Positions 47,524 through 53,930 of a stretch of 64,000 nt of DNA are shown piece by piece (the first letter of the stretch is position 1; every line of letters starts with the position of its first letter). The stretch spans positions 818,447-882,446 of the forward strand of contig PTEU01000002.1 in assembly GCA_004359425.1 (NCBI GenBank). Reading direction: 5' to 3'. The notes beneath the pieces were generated by a model. The model ran no database searches and was not told where the DNA came from. It saw only the letters and a list, made by a program, of their open reading frames with translations. The DNA is from Ideonella sp. MAG2. Lineage in GTDB: Bacteria > Pseudomonadota > Gammaproteobacteria > Burkholderiales > Burkholderiaceae_C. The position numbers and the translations under genes were made by a program.

Positions 47524-48047
47524 ACTGGCACCACGCGGTGGCCTCTGTGCAGCCCGTCTCGGCGATCCGATCTCCAGCCCTCGCTGAGCTGCTACGCCAG
47601 CCCCCGGAGGTGGGCGAGATGGTGCATATACAGGCACAGGTGCGCTGCGCTGAGAAGCCGGACCCCAACACCAATAGCGAGGTGGCGTGGCGTCTACTGG
47701 ATTGCAAACAACGCATTTGGAGCGATGCGGGGCAAGCGCTGACGCTGCACTTGAGCGAGCCCGTGGAGCCCCAACTGCAGGCCGACGTGATGGAGCCCTT
47801 GGGTCATCGATGGCCAGGCGTGGAGGTGCCCCCGCAGCCCGCCCACTCAGTGGGCTTTATTGGGCAAGTCACCCGGATTGAACGAGCGGCGGGCCAGACG
47901 GTGGCTTTGCACATTGACACCCGCGCCTTGCCATCCAATTCGGGTGGCCGCCGCATTGCGGTTTTGTCCACCGTGCTAGCGGCCGCCTTGGCCCTGTTGC
48001 ATGGCGGGCTGGGCTTGTTCGCATCTCTGGCCAGACGCCGCCGCTAA
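47520..48047 (+). CDS. Hypothetical membrane-tethered protein
   Basis: A 175-residue protein starting at a GTG that overlaps the previous stop. A beta-rich central domain (VHIQAQVRCAEKPDPNTNSE, VTRIERAAGQTVALHIDTR) is followed by one C-terminal helix (VLSTVLAAALALLHGGLGLF) and an RRRR end. Probably a tail-anchored membrane protein working with the small membrane protein before it. It is convergent with rtcA, ends overlapping by 4 bases. Confidence 0.58.
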   Translation: MNWHHAVASVQPVSAIRSPALAELLRQPPEVGEMVHIQAQVRCAEKPDPNTNSEVAWRLLDCKQRIWSDAGQALTLHLSEPVEPQLQADVMEPLGHRWPGVEVPPQPAHSVGFIGQVTRIERAAGQTVALHIDTRALPSNSGGRRIAVLSTVLAAALALLHGGLGLFASLARRRR

Positions 48048-49102
48048 GCCCCTGGCAGGCAGCGCACCAGCCATCCGCCCTCGGCAGCTTGAGTGTCAAA
48101 CCTCAGGGGCAGAAACTGCTGGATCACGCCCATATTGCTATGGGCATGCGGCGTGAGTTCGGTGCAGGTGTAGGCGGCCGCCTGCCCGCTGTGCCGCACG
48201 GCCAAGGCCAACGGTAGTGCCCATTGGTCTGCCAGATACGGCCCCAGCGCGGCCGTGCTGGCCAGATAGTGACGCGCTTGCTGCACCACCCGCGTGGCCA
48301 CCTCTTCGGCGCTGATGCCCTTGCTGCCAAACTCAGTGAACACTTCGGTCACATGCTCGTGGGCCAGCGTCAGCATCAGCGCATTGCCGGGGCCTTCGTT
48401 GGCGCGCACCACGGGCTGGCGCAGCTGCTCCTGGGCCCAGCCCATGGCCTGGCCCACGGCCTCTAGCTCTCGGTGAGCCACATTGCGCGGCAGCGCCGGC
48501 GCCAGACACTCGGCATAGGCCTCTTGGCGCTCGCCGCGCGCCAGCAAATCAAAAGGCTGCAAGGCGCCTGCGGGCGCAATGGTCACCTCCACCTCGCCAC
48601 CACCCGCCGGGTAAAAACCCATGCGGCGCAGCGTGAGCGTGCAATGCGCCCCCAAACGAGCCAGCAGCGGCATATAGCTGCGCTGCAGAAAATGCGCTGG
48701 CGGCGCCATGGGGTTGTGTGTGCCCCCACTGAGCAACACCGTGCTGGGCGCTGCCGCCTGCATCAGCGCCGGCCACACGGTTTGCAGCACCAAGGTGCAA
48801 CTGCCCGCACTGCCCACACTGAAGCGGTAGTCACCCGCCTGCACCGCCCCCGGCTCAAAGTGCAGCGTGCTCGCGTTCAACTCGGCACCTTGCACCTGCG
48901 CGTCGCAGACCTCCTGCGCAGCCAACACACAGGTCAAGTGCTGGCGCATCAAGCCCGGCTTGGCCCGACGCGCACGGATGTTGCGCAACACAAAGGGCTG
49001 GCCCGTACACATGGACAGCGCCAGCGCGGTGCGCAGAATCTGGCCGCCACCTTCACCGGTGGAGCCGTCGAGTTCAATCCATTGTTGTTCTTGGTTTTTC
49101 AT
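48044..49102 (-). CDS. rtcA: RNA 3'-terminal phosphate cyclase RtcA
   Basis: A 352-residue cyclase: N-terminal IELDGSTGEGGGQILRTALA, the RPGL-like segment RRAKPGLMRQHLT, family signature HNPMAPPAHFLQ-type region and a C-terminal His-rich ELTPHAHSNMG where the nucleotidylated His lies. It converts RNA 3'-phosphates to 2',3'-cyclic phosphates with ATP, providing RtcB substrates or protecting ends. Start chosen at MKNQEQQW. Last gene of the RNA-repair operon. Confidence 0.95.
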   Translation of the reverse strand: MKNQEQQWIELDGSTGEGGGQILRTALALSMCTGQPFVLRNIRARRAKPGLMRQHLTCVLAAQEVCDAQVQGAELNASTLHFEPGAVQAGDYRFSVGSAGSCTLVLQTVWPALMQAAAPSTVLLSGGTHNPMAPPAHFLQRSYMPLLARLGAHCTLTLRRMGFYPAGGGEVEVTIAPAGALQPFDLLARGERQEAYAECLAPALPRNVAHRELEAVGQAMGWAQEQLRQPVVRANEGPGNALMLTLAHEHVTEVFTEFGSKGISAEEVATRVVQQARHYLASTAALGPYLADQWALPLALAVRHSGQAAAYTCTELTPHAHSNMGVIQQFLPLRFDTQAAEGGWLVRCLPGA

Positions 49103-49934
49103 GTTTTTGACATGCTTCAAAGTCGAGGACCGCCGCCATCAAAAAGGCGTCAAGCTCCTCTACGCTGGAGGTCTCTGGGTCACGCTCAGGGGCCTGAACG
49201 GCTGCCCCAAGCTCTTGGTCGATGAAGGCGTTCAGTCCCCGCCAAGGCGGACTGCTTGCAGCCTCCGATGAGCGCATCTTGACTTCCAGCAGTGCATTGA
49301 TGTCCTTGATCAAGTCGGCATCTGTGACAGGGCTCAAGACCTGCTGCGCAAGTGTCGCGAAGCGCATGGGTGGAATACCAGCGTTGCTTGCAATCCAGCG
49401 TGCAGCCATCAGGGGCCTGAGCACATACAGATATTTTTTGAACCGTACCTCATCGCCTTTGAGATAGCCCCGGTAGTTCTTTCGCGCCATCGACAAATAG
49501 TGATGCCAACCCTTGGTGGCCGAGAAGTGCCCTGCCGCCAGTGCCTCCAAACGGGCGCAAGTGTCTTCATGCGCCAGGTACTGAATAGGCGACCTCAGCC
49601 ATTCGACCAAGGTGGGGTTGGACTGCTGAATCAAACCCAGTGCTTTACGCAGGTCCCAACCGTTGATGTCCAAGTCACCGCTGATGGGTAACTCGATGAC
49701 ATCTCTGCCGGGATGAACGCTCAAGTACCAGGAGAGTCGATGGACATACACAAAGCGGACGTCGTAGTCGCTGTCAGGCGACGCGAAGCCCCAGCCACGG
49801 CTGCCCGACTCGCACGCAAACAGGACTCTGACGTCATGCGTTCGTTCGATTGAACGGAGGTGCTCAAGGATCTGATCACGCATATGCGGATCTACAGGAT
49901 GCTCAGCGCGCAGAAGTTCGTTGTTGGTTCGCAT
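49074..49934 (-). CDS. Predicted nucleotidyltransferase of the rtc operon
   Basis: A 286-residue protein of the DNA-polymerase-beta superfamily (YcgL-like): catalytic core SGSRGWGFASPDSDYDVRF with the G-S and D-x-D residues, then a long helical C-terminal domain. Such enzymes add nucleotides to RNA or protein ends; here a role in RNA end repair or tRNA 3'-end completion fits the context but is inferred. It overlaps rtcA by about 29 bases. An in-frame ATG at 49967 would add 11 residues. Confidence 0.88.
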   Translation of the reverse strand: MRTNNELLRAEHPVDPHMRDQILEHLRSIERTHDVRVLFACESGSRGWGFASPDSDYDVRFVYVHRLSWYLSVHPGRDVIELPISGDLDINGWDLRKALGLIQQSNPTLVEWLRSPIQYLAHEDTCARLEALAAGHFSATKGWHHYLSMARKNYRGYLKGDEVRFKKYLYVLRPLMAARWIASNAGIPPMRFATLAQQVLSPVTDADLIKDINALLEVKMRSSEAASSPPWRGLNAFIDQELGAAVQAPERDPETSSVEELDAFLMAAVLDFEACQKHEKPRTTMD

Positions 49935-49991
49935 TTTTAGACCGCTTGATTTCGAATTGACAGTCACAGATGAGCCGAAGTACTCCCGCCT

Positions 49992-50534
49992 TCAGGTCAG
50001 AGTTTGGCTGCTTCCTTGATGGCGGAGGATCCAGGCCAGCATGCGCACGGCTCGCCCTCTGGTCCAGGGATCTTCACTCTCTGCCAGTCGTCGCATTTCA
50101 ACAGCAAATGACTCATCGGCGATCTTGATGGCCAGCCTGCAGTCGTACACAAAGCATCCAGTAGGCGGCCTTCTCACGATGGATGCGAGCAAGCTCCGCT
50201 GCACACGGCGGCACTCGTCAGATTGCAGAGACGCCTGCTTGAGCCGGTGGCACACCATGTCTCGCAAATACCCCGAGCGGAAAAATCTCGGGCTCAGGTC
50301 CAGGTACAGGAGCGCGGCCTTTCTCCAATAGCCAGACCCAGCCACGATGTCCCTCTGGACCTCAGGCGTCCGAAGCTCCCAGAGAGGGCTGCTGTAGCTG
50401 TGGATGCGGTGACAAGCCCTTAACCAGTGCTCCTGTTTCAACGGGCTTGACTTGCGCTCCGAGGCCGCTTGCCTGCAAGCAGCGTGCAAGCGGTTCACCT
50501 CAGCCTCGGTGGTTCGGATCAGTCGCTCATTCAT
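49992..50534 (-). CDS. Hypothetical helical protein of the rtc operon
   Basis: A 180-residue protein, predicted all-helical with repeated Arg/Leu-rich helices (LRTPEVQRDIVAGSGYW, ESEDPWTRGRAVRMLAWIL) like HEAT-type repeats. It is basic and has no known domain. It lies 6 bases after rtcB and before the nucleotidyltransferase on the same strand, so it belongs to the RNA-repair operon. A substrate- or tRNA-binding scaffold is one guess. Confidence 0.7.
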   Translation of the reverse strand: MNERLIRTTEAEVNRLHAACRQAASERKSSPLKQEHWLRACHRIHSYSSPLWELRTPEVQRDIVAGSGYWRKAALLYLDLSPRFFRSGYLRDMVCHRLKQASLQSDECRRVQRSLLASIVRRPPTGCFVYDCRLAIKIADESFAVEMRRLAESEDPWTRGRAVRMLAWILRHQGSSQTLT

Positions 50535-50540
50535 CGTGTC

Positions 50541-51764
50541 CTACCCCTTCACGCACACCACCTGCTTGAGTGTATGCACCACCTCCACCAAGTCCTGCTG
50601 CGCCGCCATCACCGCGTCGATGTCTTTGTAGGCCATGGGGATTTCGTCGATCACGGCTTCGTCTTTGCGGCATTCCACACCGGCCGTGGCTTGGATGTGG
50701 TCGTCCACGGTGAACATCTTCTTGGCCTTGGTGCGGCTCATCACGCGGCCCGCGCCGTGGCTGCAGCTCTCAAAGCTTTCCGGGTTGCCCAGGCCGCGCA
50801 CGATGTAGCTGCGCGCGCCCATGCTGCCCGGGATGATGCCCAGCTCGCCCTTCTTAGCGCTCACCGCGCCCTTGCGGGTCACGAACACGTCTTCACCAAA
50901 GTGGCGCTCTTGCTGCACATAGTTGTGGTGGCAGTTCACCGCCTCGATGTGCGACTCAAACGGTTTGGTGATGACCTGTCGCACGGTGGCAATGAGGTTG
51001 GCCATCATCACTTCGCGGTTACGCTGCGCAAACTTCTGCGCCCAACCCACCGCGCGCACATAGTCGCCAAAGTACTGCGCCCCCTCTTCGAAGTAGGCCA
51101 AGTCTTCATCGGGCAGGTTGCGTTGGTTGCGCTCGGCGTCCTTCTTGGCCAGCTCGATGAAATGGGTGCCGATGGCATTGCCCACCCCACGCGAACCGGA
51201 GTGCAGCATGAACCACACCGCCCCTTGCTCGTCCAGGCAGACTTCGATGAAGTGGTTACCCGTCCCCAAAGTGCCCAGGTGTTTGCGGTTGTTGGTGTTC
51301 TTCAGGCGCGGGTGCAGCTCGCACAGCGCGTCGAACTCATCAGCCAGCGTGGCCCAGATCTGGTCCACCGTGTCGGGTGGGTTCTCCCAGCTGCCGGGGT
51401 CACGGCCCCCACGGCGCGGCGAGAAGCCGTGCGGCACGGCCTTCTCAATGGCCGCACGCAGTGGGCCTAAGTTGTCGGGCAGGTCTTCAGCGCGCAAGGT
51501 GGTCTTGGCCGCCATCATTCCGCAGCCAATGTCTACTCCCACCGCCGCCGGGATGATGGCCTTGAAGGTCGGCACCACCGAGCCCACCGTGGCACCAATA
51601 CCCAAGTGCACGTCGGGCATGGCCGCGATGTGTTTGAAGATGATGGGCAGCTTGGCCGTGTTGGCCAACTGCTGTTGGGCCTCTGCTTCAACGGGCACGC
51701 CGTTGGTCCACATCTTGATGGGCACGCCGCCTTCGGGTTGGATTTGTTGGTAGTTGGAGCTCAT
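50541..51764 (-). CDS. rtcB: RNA-splicing ligase RtcB
   Basis: A 407-residue GTP- and Mn-dependent 3'-phosphate RNA ligase. Key motifs are present: GVDIGCGM (metal Cys), GTGNHFIE, MLHSGSRGVGN and the guanylylated His in CSHGAGRVMSR. It joins 2',3'-cyclic-phosphate or 3'-phosphate ends to 5'-OH ends, repairing cleaved tRNA or rRNA. The ATG at 51764 is followed by MSSNYQQIQPEG. The gene is preceded by a tRNA-like module. Confidence 0.97.
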   Translation of the reverse strand: MSSNYQQIQPEGGVPIKMWTNGVPVEAEAQQQLANTAKLPIIFKHIAAMPDVHLGIGATVGSVVPTFKAIIPAAVGVDIGCGMMAAKTTLRAEDLPDNLGPLRAAIEKAVPHGFSPRRGGRDPGSWENPPDTVDQIWATLADEFDALCELHPRLKNTNNRKHLGTLGTGNHFIEVCLDEQGAVWFMLHSGSRGVGNAIGTHFIELAKKDAERNQRNLPDEDLAYFEEGAQYFGDYVRAVGWAQKFAQRNREVMMANLIATVRQVITKPFESHIEAVNCHHNYVQQERHFGEDVFVTRKGAVSAKKGELGIIPGSMGARSYIVRGLGNPESFESCSHGAGRVMSRTKAKKMFTVDDHIQATAGVECRKDEAVIDEIPMAYKDIDAVMAAQQDLVEVVHTLKQVVCVKG

Positions 51765-51804
51765 GTCTCTTCTCTTTGCTTTGCTTGTCAGTGGTCAGTT
51801 TGTT

Positions 51805-51861
51805 TGGTGGACGCGACGGGATTCGAACCCGCATCAATGGGGCAACCACGGTTTTGAGTCC
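51805..51861 (-). ncRNA. tRNA-like module A, between slipin and rtcB
   Basis: The minus strand has a canonical T-arm (CGGG TTCGAAT CCCG, 51817-51831) followed by an acceptor 3' strand CGCGTCC, discriminator A and encoded CCA (51805-51807). Only four of the seven acceptor bases (GGAC, 51858-51861) have a partner upstream, and no normal D-arm or anticodon arm is present. So it is not a decoding tRNA but a tRNA mimic, comparable in concept to the tRNA-like part of YrlA RNA linked to rtcBA in Salmonella. Confidence 0.65.
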
Positions 51862-52056
51862 AGTGGCCCAGTCGGTGATTGGAAACGCGCGCCAGTGACA
51901 GACCCGTCATCGGAGCCAGCACCTGCATCCTCAACCTTGCTCACCAACCGACTTGCCTGCCCCACCTGGTGTTACCCAGCCTGCCGGCATGTTCAATCAT
52001 TTTTGGCAGTGGCGCTCCCTTCTGTGCCAGCGCGCCCATGTTCTTCACTCAAAGCC
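51862..52056 (-). other. Spacer between slipin and tRNA-like module A
   Basis: About 195 transcribed bases without a gene. Some GC-rich pairing is possible but no defined structure was recognised; it may form the upstream part of a Y-RNA-like transcript. Confidence 0.35.
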
Positions 52057-53196
52057 TCAACGTAGCTTCACCAGCCCGTTGAGCACTTGGTCCAAGCCGC
52101 CGAACACCGAGATTTTGTCGATGCGCTCAGCCACACGTTCCAGGGTCTCCAGCTCTTTCATGCGCAGGGCCACCGGGTTGTCTTCCATGACCTTGGCGGT
52201 GTTGAGCAGCGAACGCGTTGCGGCGGTCTCTTCGCGGCGACGGATCACATTGGCCTGGGCCAATTTTTCTGCCTGCACCACCTGGGCCAGGATGGCCTTC
52301 ATCTCGCCCGGCAGGACGATGTCCTTCACGCCCACACTGTCCAGACTGATGCCGTAGGGCTGCAGCTTGGGCAGGATGGTGGCGCGCACTACATCGTCGA
52401 TCACCGACTTGTTCTCCAGCAGCTCATCGAGCGTGCGGGTCCCCACGGCAGCTCGCAGCGCAAACTGCAGTTCACGGTACAGGTGTTCTGCAGGCTTGGG
52501 CAGTTGAGTAAAGGCGCTCAGCACATCCACCAGACGATAGGTGGCGCTCAGGTTCAGGCGCAGCCCAACCTTGTCGCGGGTCATGATGTCTTGGCCCGAG
52601 ACCTCCAAGGCCTGCACACGCAAGTCCACCAGATCTACAGCCAAGTTGCGGCCATAGCGCCAGAAGCCGTAGGCCCCCGCGCTCAACACGCGCTCCACCT
52701 TGCCATCCAGACTCAGCAGAGCGCACTGACCCTCGGGCACCTGCACTTGCAGCACGCCTTCTAGGCCAGCGACAGCGCGACCACGCCACTGTGTCTGCGT
52801 CAGGCGAGCCAGAACCTCAGGGGATAGCTCAGCGCCCGCGCGCAAGTCGACGACCTGCACAGCCACCTCGACCAAGCCCTTCCAAAACAAACGGCGAGTG
52901 CCTGGAGGCAGGATCTCCACCAGCACACCGTTCTCGGTGCGCAGGCCAACCTGCTGCTCGTCCAGGCTCACCGCCACAAACTCGGCGGCCAGCACCTGGG
53001 GCTCTTTGGCCAACAGGTAGTCGGACAAGGCGTGGCGGAATGCCGGCTGCTCCAGCGAGAAAACCTCCACGCGCAGGCGGTCCAGCCCACTGAACAGCCA
53101 GTGGGTTCCGCTGCGCAGCACGCGCTCAAAGTCGCCGTTGCGCAGCAGCAGAGCGCGTTCGTTCTTCTTCACGGTCACTCGTTCAATCTTCATCAT
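52057..53196 (-). CDS. Slipin (SPFH/band-7 family) protein of the rtc operon
   Basis: A 379-residue protein. The N-terminal ~130 residues are an unusual beta-rich part (RALLLRNGDFERVLRSGTHW). The SPFH domain follows (VDLRVQALEVSGQDIMTRDK, ATYRLVDVLSAFTQLPKPA, LDSVGVKDIVLPGEMKAIL), then a coiled-coil with AEKLAQANVIRRREETAATR. No clear N-terminal membrane helix. Slipins beside rtcB are known from other bacteria; a membrane-scaffold role is assumed. GAGGAG precedes the ATG pair at 53193-53196. Confidence 0.88.
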   Translation of the reverse strand: MMKIERVTVKKNERALLLRNGDFERVLRSGTHWLFSGLDRLRVEVFSLEQPAFRHALSDYLLAKEPQVLAAEFVAVSLDEQQVGLRTENGVLVEILPPGTRRLFWKGLVEVAVQVVDLRAGAELSPEVLARLTQTQWRGRAVAGLEGVLQVQVPEGQCALLSLDGKVERVLSAGAYGFWRYGRNLAVDLVDLRVQALEVSGQDIMTRDKVGLRLNLSATYRLVDVLSAFTQLPKPAEHLYRELQFALRAAVGTRTLDELLENKSVIDDVVRATILPKLQPYGISLDSVGVKDIVLPGEMKAILAQVVQAEKLAQANVIRRREETAATRSLLNTAKVMEDNPVALRMKELETLERVAERIDKISVFGGLDQVLNGLVKLR

Positions 53197-53501
53197 GTCG
53201 TTCTCCTCACTTGATGGGGTCTCGCTGAAGGGGCGCGACCCGCTTGTTGGGGTGCCGTTACAGCCGTGACGGGGTGCCAGGGGGCACAAGCTCGGGCCTT
53301 GCAGTGCGCCTTGCTGATGCCCCCAAAAGGGGCCACAGCGGGCTGGCTGCGGGCGCGGCTTGTGCCCGGGGCTGGCACGTGCCGCCACCGTCTGACGGGA
53401 GGAGGACTTGGGCTTGACGAGCAAGCTGTCGGCCCTCACCCCGCGTTCGGCGGGTGGTCTTTCGACCGGTTCTTCACTTCAAATGCTCCAACCTTGCGGC
53501 C
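53197..53501 (-). other. Leader between tRNA-like modules and slipin
   Basis: About 305 bases, transcribed leftward, no gene. A hairpin with arms at 53485-53489 and 53502-53506 (GCTCC/GGAGC) sits at the 3' side of module B. Nothing else recognised. Confidence 0.4.
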
Positions 53502-53570
53502 GGAGCGACGGGCAGGAGTCGAACCTGCGACAGCTCCTTTCAGGAGGGCTCTACCAGACTGAGCTACCAG
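53502..53570 (-). ncRNA. tRNA-like module B
   Basis: The minus strand shows a canonical D-arm (TAGCTCAGTCTGGTAGAGC), a shortened anticodon-type stem (CTCC TGAAA GGAG) and a normal T-arm (GCAGG TTCGACT CCTGC), but the acceptor ends pair only at the inner three positions and no CCA is encoded. A decoding tRNA is excluded by the 5-base anticodon loop. It lies head-to-tail after module C in the sigma-54 transcript. Confidence 0.62.
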
Positions 53571-53631
53571 TGGTGGCCTGCCGGGAGTCGAACCCGACCC
53601 TTCCTTGCGGAGAGGTCACCACGACCAGACC
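53571..53631 (-). ncRNA. tRNA-like module C with encoded CCA
   Basis: On the minus strand GGTCTG at the 5' end pairs fully (one G-U) with CAGGCC at the 3' end, followed by A and CCA. A T-arm TCGGG TTCGACT CCCGG precedes the 3' strand and a small hairpin TCC-GCAA-GGA lies in the middle. D-arm and a 7-base anticodon loop are lacking. Length 61 bases, too short for a tRNA. Confidence 0.62.
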
Positions 53632-53771
53632 GATTTCAGCCGTTCGCGCCGTGCGGCATACAGAGCATCACGCCGCCCATGGGGCTTTGGATGTCCTGCA
53701 CCGGCAGGGCGAACCTTTGTCCAAACCCTGACCTGTGAGCATTCGACGCTTGCGTCTGATGCCTGATCTAT

Positions 53772-53787
53772 TGCAATGGGTGTGCCA
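53772..53787 (-). promoter_or_regulatory. Sigma-54 promoter of the RNA-repair operon
   Basis: Minus-strand TGGCACACCCATTGCA matches the -24/-12 consensus TGGCAC-N5-TTGCW exactly. It points to the tRNA-like modules, slipin, rtcB and rtcA; start of transcription expected near 53760. RtcR is a sigma-54 activator, which fits its divergent gene. 53788-53930 probably holds its upstream binding sites; none was identified with certainty. Confidence 0.85.
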
Positions 53788-53930
53788 GGCTGGCCAACGC
53801 TCGGCATAAATCACGCTAAGTCTTTGATTTATTAGTGATTTGTGAATGGGTGCGGAGTTTCATGAGTCTTGAGCTGTTCAATGAGATCTGTTTGAAATAG
53901 CATTTGAGCTAGTCATTTATTTATCTGGAT

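Follow-up and report, generated by a model that had tools for sequence, protein, structure and literature searches.

Two predicted tRNA-mimicking RNAs, one with alanine identity elements, in an RNA-repair operon of Ideonella

RtcR operons, the nucleotidyltransferase family RlaP and the Y RNA YrlA are already known. SPFH/Band-7 modules with "a novel tRNA-like molecule" have reportedly been described as well, by Burroughs and Aravind in 2016. In Escherichia coli and Salmonella, the rsr-yrlBA-rtcBA locus combines a divergent rtcR, a sigma-54 promoter, rtcB, rtcA and RNA genes inside the operon. All of these recur at a locus of Ideonella sp. MAG2 (contig PTEU01000002.1) that lies in the 64,000-nucleotide (nt) stretch analysed here, referred to as the window. 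Reading leftward from 53788 to 48044 on the minus strand, the order is a sigma-54 promoter, tRNA-like modules C and B, slipin, a structured RNA that we call RNA2, rtcB, a gene for a protein of 180 amino acids (aa), an RlaP nucleotidyltransferase gene and rtcA. The comparison supports assignment of the locus as an RNA-repair operon of the RtcR/sigma-54 type. Its transcript probably encodes, alongside the repair proteins, two separate tRNA-mimicking RNAs, namely RNA2 and a leader RNA upstream of slipin, RNA1.

Relatives were collected through slipin, which a whole-genome search found in 17 of 200 family genomes, the source genome included. The named loci (L numbers) are the best 80 of at least 559 slipin loci, and locus counts out of 80 refer to these; 49 of them have rtcR on the examined stretch and 31 do not.

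RNA2 is, as judged from sequence comparison, a discrete RNA located between slipin and rtcB and separate from RNA1. It has a 7-base-pair (bp) acceptor (GGGCGCG/CGCGTCC), a T arm and an anticodon-like arm whose loop is fixed in neither length nor sequence. A long-range helix (TGGGGCA/TGCCCCA) and an inner helix (GTTGGTGA/TCACCGAC) enclose a nearly invariant domain, TTGAGGATGCAGGTG...CACTGGCGCGCGTTT. The boundaries are conserved: among eight non-self DNA matches in 299 family genomes, seven start at the first acceptor base and five end within 3 nt of the CCA. Across 20 copies, 98.4% of cells in the proposed fold are paired and both sides have changed in 20 of the 48 pairs. None of 500 shuffles did as well on four of five measures, while the fifth (further pair types) was reached by 388 of the 500; slid controls gave 33–54%. 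With 23 copies, five of them divergent, 97.9% of cells are paired, both sides have changed in 36 of 48 pairs, no shuffle of 500 matched any of the five measures and slid controls gave 33–53%, in an alignment that was fitted to the model and thereby favours the fold. Minimum-energy folding of the window RNA2 alone reproduced the main helices. In one relative (L157, 5001–5255), RNA2 carries a tandem duplication close to the inner helix, made of CAATCGCC repeats.

These boundaries revise the sequence-only reading of the locus, which had proposed three tRNA-like modules of one kind. Its module A (51800–51900) is indeed tRNA-like, yet it is not a complete module: it forms the 3′ part of the 233-nt RNA2, and modules C and B belong together to RNA1. 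RNA2 was also considered as an interrupted tRNA and rejected, as no D arm follows the acceptor. No Rfam family matched RNA2 above its cut-off in the window, L019–L030, L154–L157, L190 or L212. Searches that covered part of the literature returned no paper describing RNA2, and none combining "slipin" with "tRNA-like" or "SPFH" with "RtcB" and "tRNA-like".

The ends of RNA2 point to alanine. The pair G3:U70 together with A73 constitutes the alanine identity of tRNA-Ala and of transfer-messenger RNA (tmRNA). In RNA2, positions 1–3, 70–73 and the CCA read GGG...UCC-A-CCA, and G3:U70 is present in 22 of 23 copies, A73 in all 23 and the CCA in 21. In L191 the neighbouring pair 4:69 is flipped from C-G to G-C with G3:U70 retained, and L212, one more copy, likewise has G3:U70. 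By its sequence, then, RNA2 is a carrier of alanine identity elements, as tmRNA is. The encoded CCA of both module C and RNA2 also bears on the suggestion that the nucleotidyltransferase of the operon might perform CCA-type addition; that activity is not needed, and the protein belongs to a family of its own, RlaP.

RNA2 was found by pattern downstream of slipin in 13 of the 80 loci, and in the 12 of these that were measured its T arm starts 221–277 nt past the slipin stop codon. The Variovorax locus L092 carries RNA2, and none was found in L041, from an Acidovorax. A DNA search located it in nine of 299 family genomes, including the source genome and two broken copies, and in one plasmid record. 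With the RNA2 model, five of 369 class genomes (source included) were accepted at 65 bits or more, followed by a gap in score from 65.6 to 38.4 bits. The raw tally of 305 of 369 class genomes consists mostly of tRNAs and tmRNAs, and its weaker matches were not checked individually; the next-best matches are ordinary tRNAs and tmRNAs, and of 25 loci fetched from just below the gap (38.4 bits or less) ARAGORN assigns 15 to tRNA and 10 to tmRNA. A phylum sample of 398 genomes held one copy besides that of the source; a third match there is a tRNA-Met and was discarded. None was found in phages, in viral contigs (two patterns) or in E. coli.

The neighbours of RNA2 vary. RNA2 lies downstream of slipin in the window, in L158 and in the 13 loci found by pattern, and precedes rtcB in rsr-type operons in L154–L157 and L190. 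Ro60 vWA and TROVE domains are present in the proteins of L154 and L190, with L155, L156 and L157 similar by eye. In L154, L156 and L190 an Rfam YrlA scores above its cut-off, whereas L155 and L157 are YrlA-like by eye only. Among class genomes, RNA2 occurred within 1,500 nt on either side of rsr in one of three. Elsewhere it stands right before rtcB with its own sigma-54 site (L159, a plasmid), directly before rtcB (L192), between rtcB and rtcA (L212), or between tRNA-Leu genes of a tRNA array beside slipin and rtcB (L191). Because rtcB is on the examined stretch for 23 of 25 distinct copies (none was seen in L101 and L193), it is the steadiest neighbour of RNA2.

Upstream of slipin, modules C and B form one leader RNA. 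RNA1 comprises a 5′ stretch (GCTCACAGG...GCCGGTG...ATGCCGC), modules C and B, placed where the sequence-only reading had them, a hairpin (GGTCGAAAGACC), and then CCGCCGAACGCGG and GCTGTAACGGCA. Among the 80 loci, the motif CTCRCAG occurs in 58, GGTCGNNAGACC in 57 and CTGTAACGGCA in 50; the last lies at 53264–53253 on the minus strand of the window and about 30–100 nt ahead of slipin in the 50 relatives. T-arm motifs are present within 1,000 nt upstream of slipin in 78 of the 80 loci, with two or more in 62. The two loci without one are L106, with an upstream DNA of only 319 nt, and L109 (Pseudomonas brassicae). Two paired T arms in strict tandem occur in 63 loci and the window; of the other 17, 15 show one arm by this pattern, including the eight Variovorax loci, and two show none. 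RNA1 goes with slipin and is probably its partner RNA; it is probably already known in outline. A model of the doublet, R2, was rejected as a detector, as tandem tRNAs of the source genome reach 72 bits against 74.5 for the window doublet; being non-specific, it was used for position only. A search of plasmids for RNA1 returned none.

Module C in the window lacks both a D arm and an anticodon arm. Across loci it consists of an acceptor of 6–7 bp, a small hairpin and a T arm, and 51 of 64 loci have a CCA where one is expected. A simple search for the exact acceptor helix found none in 15 of the 63 tandem loci. The complementary 5′ strand having been searched for, and MAFFT having misplaced the C acceptor, the helix was tested by permutation: a full 6-bp helix with the locus' own 3′ strand forms in 23 of the 35 loci that have distinct 3′ strands, against a mean of 4.2 and a maximum of 10 in 1,000 permutations. 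The remaining 12 have no full 6-bp helix within the limits set.

In module B the D and T arms are retained. It barely passes the Rfam tRNA model at 30.5 bits (cut-off 29), over model positions 6–65 of 71, which exclude the outer acceptor stem. As a tRNA gene, B in the window lacks a 7-bp acceptor stem and a 7-nt anticodon loop, and ARAGORN called no tRNA anywhere in the window; in the relative L030, B has a full stem. Measured from its D arm to its T stem, B has tRNA length (22–23 nt) in 25 of the 26 rtcR-less loci. In rtcR loci, the window included, this stretch is shortened to 17–21 nt in 23 of 38, full in 14 and undecided in one, and the shortened arm has a GNRA-like loop in 14 loci. The triplet in the anticodon place also differs between loci. 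What B conserves is therefore the tRNA elbow and not decoding. In Pseudomonas aeruginosa PA7 (L113, from about 4654), ARAGORN calls B a tRNA-Arg(ACG), and in other relatives Thr, Ile, Met, Val, Cys, Leu, Phe or even "Stop"; public annotation upstream of slipin may therefore list tRNA mimics as tRNA genes.

The exact −24/−12 promoter seen in the sequence-only reading was confirmed: CTGGCACACCCATTGCA is the sole site with at most one mismatch to the consensus on either strand of the window. In the rtcR loci (the window and the 49 others), a site with at most two mismatches lies between rtcR and slipin in 50 of 50, with no mismatch in three, one in 39 and two in eight; shuffled controls gave about one locus in 50. 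The 31 loci whose examined stretch lacks rtcR, some of them with short upstream DNA, contain no such site. The window rtcR is divergent from the operon and encodes the CARF sensor domain alone, the AAA+ and DNA-binding parts of a full-length RtcR being absent. In all 49 other rtcR loci, the query's own included, tblastn covers 534–544 of the 544 aa of RtcR. No second RtcR was found in the source assembly, which is 91% complete. The truncated rtcR runs into a gene with RTX-type calcium-binding repeats. The activator of the window operon may have been lost; alternatively, the CARF domain may function by itself.

Two kinds of slipin locus can be distinguished. Canonical tRNA genes lie further than 450 nt ahead of slipin in 23 of 31 loci without rtcR, with up to 19 genes, versus three of 49 with rtcR; several of the eight rtcR-less loci without tRNA genes are short contigs. 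In L053, L062, L065, L084, L103 and L104, all without rtcR, 5–19 canonical tRNA genes stand ahead of the RNA1 leader and slipin, and in L067, also without rtcR, an HNH endonuclease gene stands directly ahead of RNA1.

The protein genes bear out the gene content read from the sequence, Pfam giving Band_7, RtcB, RlaP and RTC for slipin, rtcB, the nucleotidyltransferase and rtcA (Table 1). By their open reading frames and Pfam matches, rtcB and rtcA run in the same direction with tight spacing, and co-transcription is predicted. The 180-aa protein had no match in Pfam, NCBIfam or PADLOC; tblastn places relatives of it close to rtcB in L039 and L092.

Table 1. Positions of RNA, protein and promoter features of the operon in the window
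Feature	Position	Strand	Basis
RNA2, 233-nt structured RNA with tRNA-like ends and conserved inner domain	51805–52037	−	Comparative fold, DNA matches
RNA1, leader RNA upstream of slipin (ends approximate)	53250–53740	−	Alignment of 13 loci, motif counts in 80
Module C: 6-bp acceptor GGTCTG/CAGGCC, GCAA-loop hairpin, T arm, encoded ACCA	53571–53631	−	Permutation test
Module B: tRNA core with D and T arms, short stem replacing the anticodon arm (3–5 nt loop), acceptor of about 3 bp, no CCA	53510–53570	−	Rfam tRNA
Sigma-54 −24/−12 promoter	53772–53788	−	Exact match to YTGGCACN5TTGCW
Truncated rtcR, CARF sensor domain alone, 189 aa	53931–54500	+	PF06956 positions 1–174; NF038308 2–172 of 530
slipin (SPFH/Band-7), 379 aa	52057–53196	−	PF01145, 8.4e-33
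rtcB, RNA ligase, 407 aa	50541–51764	−	PF01139, 1e-128
180-aa protein, no family assigned	49992–50534	−	Adjoins rtcB
RlaP-family nucleotidyltransferase (RNA repair pathway DNA polymerase beta family)	49074–49967	−	PF10127, 1.1e-92
rtcA, RNA 3′-phosphate cyclase	48044–49120	−	PF01137, 7.8e-75

The fold, the conserved boundaries, the identity elements and the linkage of RNA2, all established at the level of sequence, suggest that RNA2 is likely a processed and probably alanylated tRNA mimic that would serve in responses to RNA damage. RNase P and a 3′ nuclease would cut it from the operon RNA, as is known of these enzymes with other substrates, and alanyl-tRNA synthetase would charge it. Once RNA damage switches the operon on, charged or uncharged RNA2 may engage EF-Tu, the ribosome or repair proteins. 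Two uses appear about equally likely: a tmRNA-like but tagless rescue of ribosomes stalled by broken tRNAs, and a role in baiting or scaffolding RtcB and enzymes that process tRNA. RtcR is activated by 5′ tRNA halves with a cyclic phosphate (Hughes et al. 2020, PMC7790460), and when E. coli RNA was screened for ligation in vitro, RtcB targeted tmRNA most frequently (Kotta-Loizou et al. 2022, PMC9650030). An alanine-charged, tagless mimic made under RNA damage would fit equally as a helper of stalled ribosomes and as a bait or scaffold. We put forward more tentatively, and with some doubt, that RNA2 may be a third natural alanine-accepting bacterial RNA besides tRNA-Ala and tmRNA: a mobile, damage-induced, tagless analogue of tmRNA within RNA-repair operons that would bring alanine to, or dock on, ribosomes stalled by broken tRNAs.

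Several observations weigh against this reading of RNA2. The truncation of RtcR in the window means that the operon may be silent here. RNA2 is patchily distributed (13 of 80 slipin loci, nine of 299 family genomes and five of 369 class genomes), and is therefore dispensable. G3:U70 may reflect inheritance and not selection, since close relatives make up 18 of the 23 copies. RNA2 does not fold with a lower energy than shuffled sequence does (z −0.55). One copy, L193, has no G at position 3, no CCA and no 5′ hairpins; it is shortened, lies near the contig start and ends in CGA. L033 retains only the first part of RNA2, and L019 (5155–5455) has a naturally broken copy, its T loop interrupted by a GC-rich insertion of roughly 70 nt. 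Finally, among the frames of the 23 copies none was seen by eye to be shared, a point against a literal tmRNA role.

An alternative that we regard as possible, though on balance doubtful, is that RNA1 and RNA2 both act uncharged, as baits or scaffolds whose tRNA-like ends do no more than protect the RNA and dock RtcB, slipin and nucleases, with the alanine identity a by-product of tRNA-Ala or tmRNA ancestry. The C acceptors differ widely among loci and B is mostly without a CCA; the RNA1 modules thus share no common identity, so uncharged mimicry seems to have a place in this operon too. The presence of rtcB in 72 of the 80 slipin loci, and by 23 of 25 RNA2 copies, agrees with this, as does the competitive-inhibitor role that Hughes et al. 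propose for YrlA (PMC7790460). Against an uncharged role, 22 of 23 copies retain G3:U70 even though G3:C70 would pair more stably and the neighbouring positions 4–6 vary. An anticodon-nuclease sensor is improbable. Module B or RNA2 would be cleaved, the fragment with its cyclic phosphate would activate RtcR, and RtcB would reseal the RNA. Such fragments of tRNA are the RtcR ligands described by Hughes et al. (PMC7790460), RNA2 has an anticodon-like arm, and B keeps a full-length arm in 25 of 26 rtcR-less loci and 14 of 38 with rtcR. However, 23 of the 38 rtcR loci, the window among them, have a shortened B arm, and the arm is most complete in loci that lack an rtcR to be activated; the RNA2 loop has no fixed length or sequence, and the lack of a 7-nt anticodon loop argues against B as a cleavable sensor here.

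Kinship with the Y RNAs YrlA and YrlB, which bind Ro60 (Rsr), is more improbable still. RNA2 adjoins YrlA in rsr operons and both have tRNA parts. Yet the YrlA model does not match the RNA2 stretch of the window (E up to 10) or of L154–L157, L190 or L212; the acceptor and T arm of RNA2 stand at its ends and not in permuted order, and it coexists with YrlA in L154, L156 and L190. No rsr was seen, by annotation or open reading frames of the stretches examined, in the window operon, L159, L192 or L212; a scan for rsr/Ro60 found none among the window operon proteins and found it in two other RNA2 loci. For the Y RNA connection drawn in the sequence-only reading, the outcome is that neither RNA passes as YrlA, given the low YrlA score of RNA1 and the true YrlA that adjoins RNA2 elsewhere as a separate gene. 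The same reading had named decay of ordinary tRNA genes as the finding that would overturn it, and decaying tRNA genes or attachment-site remnants are hardly credible. B is called a tRNA in some relatives, but C and RNA2 show compensatory changes, position is conserved, and B retains its elbow across loci with differing anticodon loops, its anticodon arm being short in 23 of 38 rtcR loci versus one of 26 others. The modules are real and conserved beside slipin and rtcB, as the T-arm motifs and the covariation indicate.

These RNAs bear on what bacterial RtcB mends and on why RtcB operons carry tRNA mimics. An alanine-addressed RNA in RNA-repair operons would link RNA repair to ribosome rescue, a link already hinted at by tmRNA as the main RtcB ligation target (PMC9650030).

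Among described RNAs, tmRNA (RF00023) resembles RNA2 in architecture. Both have a 7-bp acceptor with G3:U70, A73 and CCA, a T arm, no D stem and a long-range helix around a large insert. RNA2 differs in scoring 18 bits against a cut-off of 47, in its length of 233 nt versus about 370, and in having no shared tag frame; the source genome has its own tmRNA (192 bits). The tRNA-like domain of a tmRNA is thus present in RNA2, and the covariance score and a tag frame with resume and stop codons are not. RNA2 was rejected as a tag-bearing tmRNA, since the 23 copies have no common frame or tag-like ending and only some have stop triplets in the anticodon-like loop; the permuted tmRNA model also remained below its cut-off. 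YrlA (RF02553) has in common with RNA1 and RNA2 its tRNA mimicry and its place in RNA-repair operons. As a YrlA, RNA1 (C plus B) was rejected at 27.6 bits against a cut-off of 69 in the window; around C plus B, the model gave 24.7–32.7 bits in eight of 16 scanned loci, which is a resemblance only. Module C resembles mascRNA-menRNA (RF01684), a small acceptor/T-arm RNA of an animal family, and the Rfam model aligns end to end; at 31.6 bits against a cut-off of 42.5, C was rejected as a mascRNA.

At the level of gene organization, the window pairs a tRNA-like RNA with a Band-7 gene that neighbours the gene for an RNA ligase. The modules of Burroughs and Aravind (2016) reportedly share this arrangement of slipin beside rtcB with a tRNA-like RNA, and we take their novel nucleotidyltransferase to be possibly RlaP, judging by the Pfam name. 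The array-type loci resemble the Anabaena trn tRNA operon, a stress-induced tRNA array co-regulated with rtcB and slipin; a trcR mutant derepresses the tRNA array, rtcB, slipin and HNH genes together (PMC10272220). The Anabaena genes differ in being scattered, and the term "tRNA-like" is absent from the main text of that report. This co-derepression fits a shared role in translation stress. Compared with the rtcBA operon of Salmonella and E. coli, the Ideonella operon has slipin in place of rsr, an added RlaP and 180-aa protein, two tRNA-mimic RNAs and a truncated RtcR.

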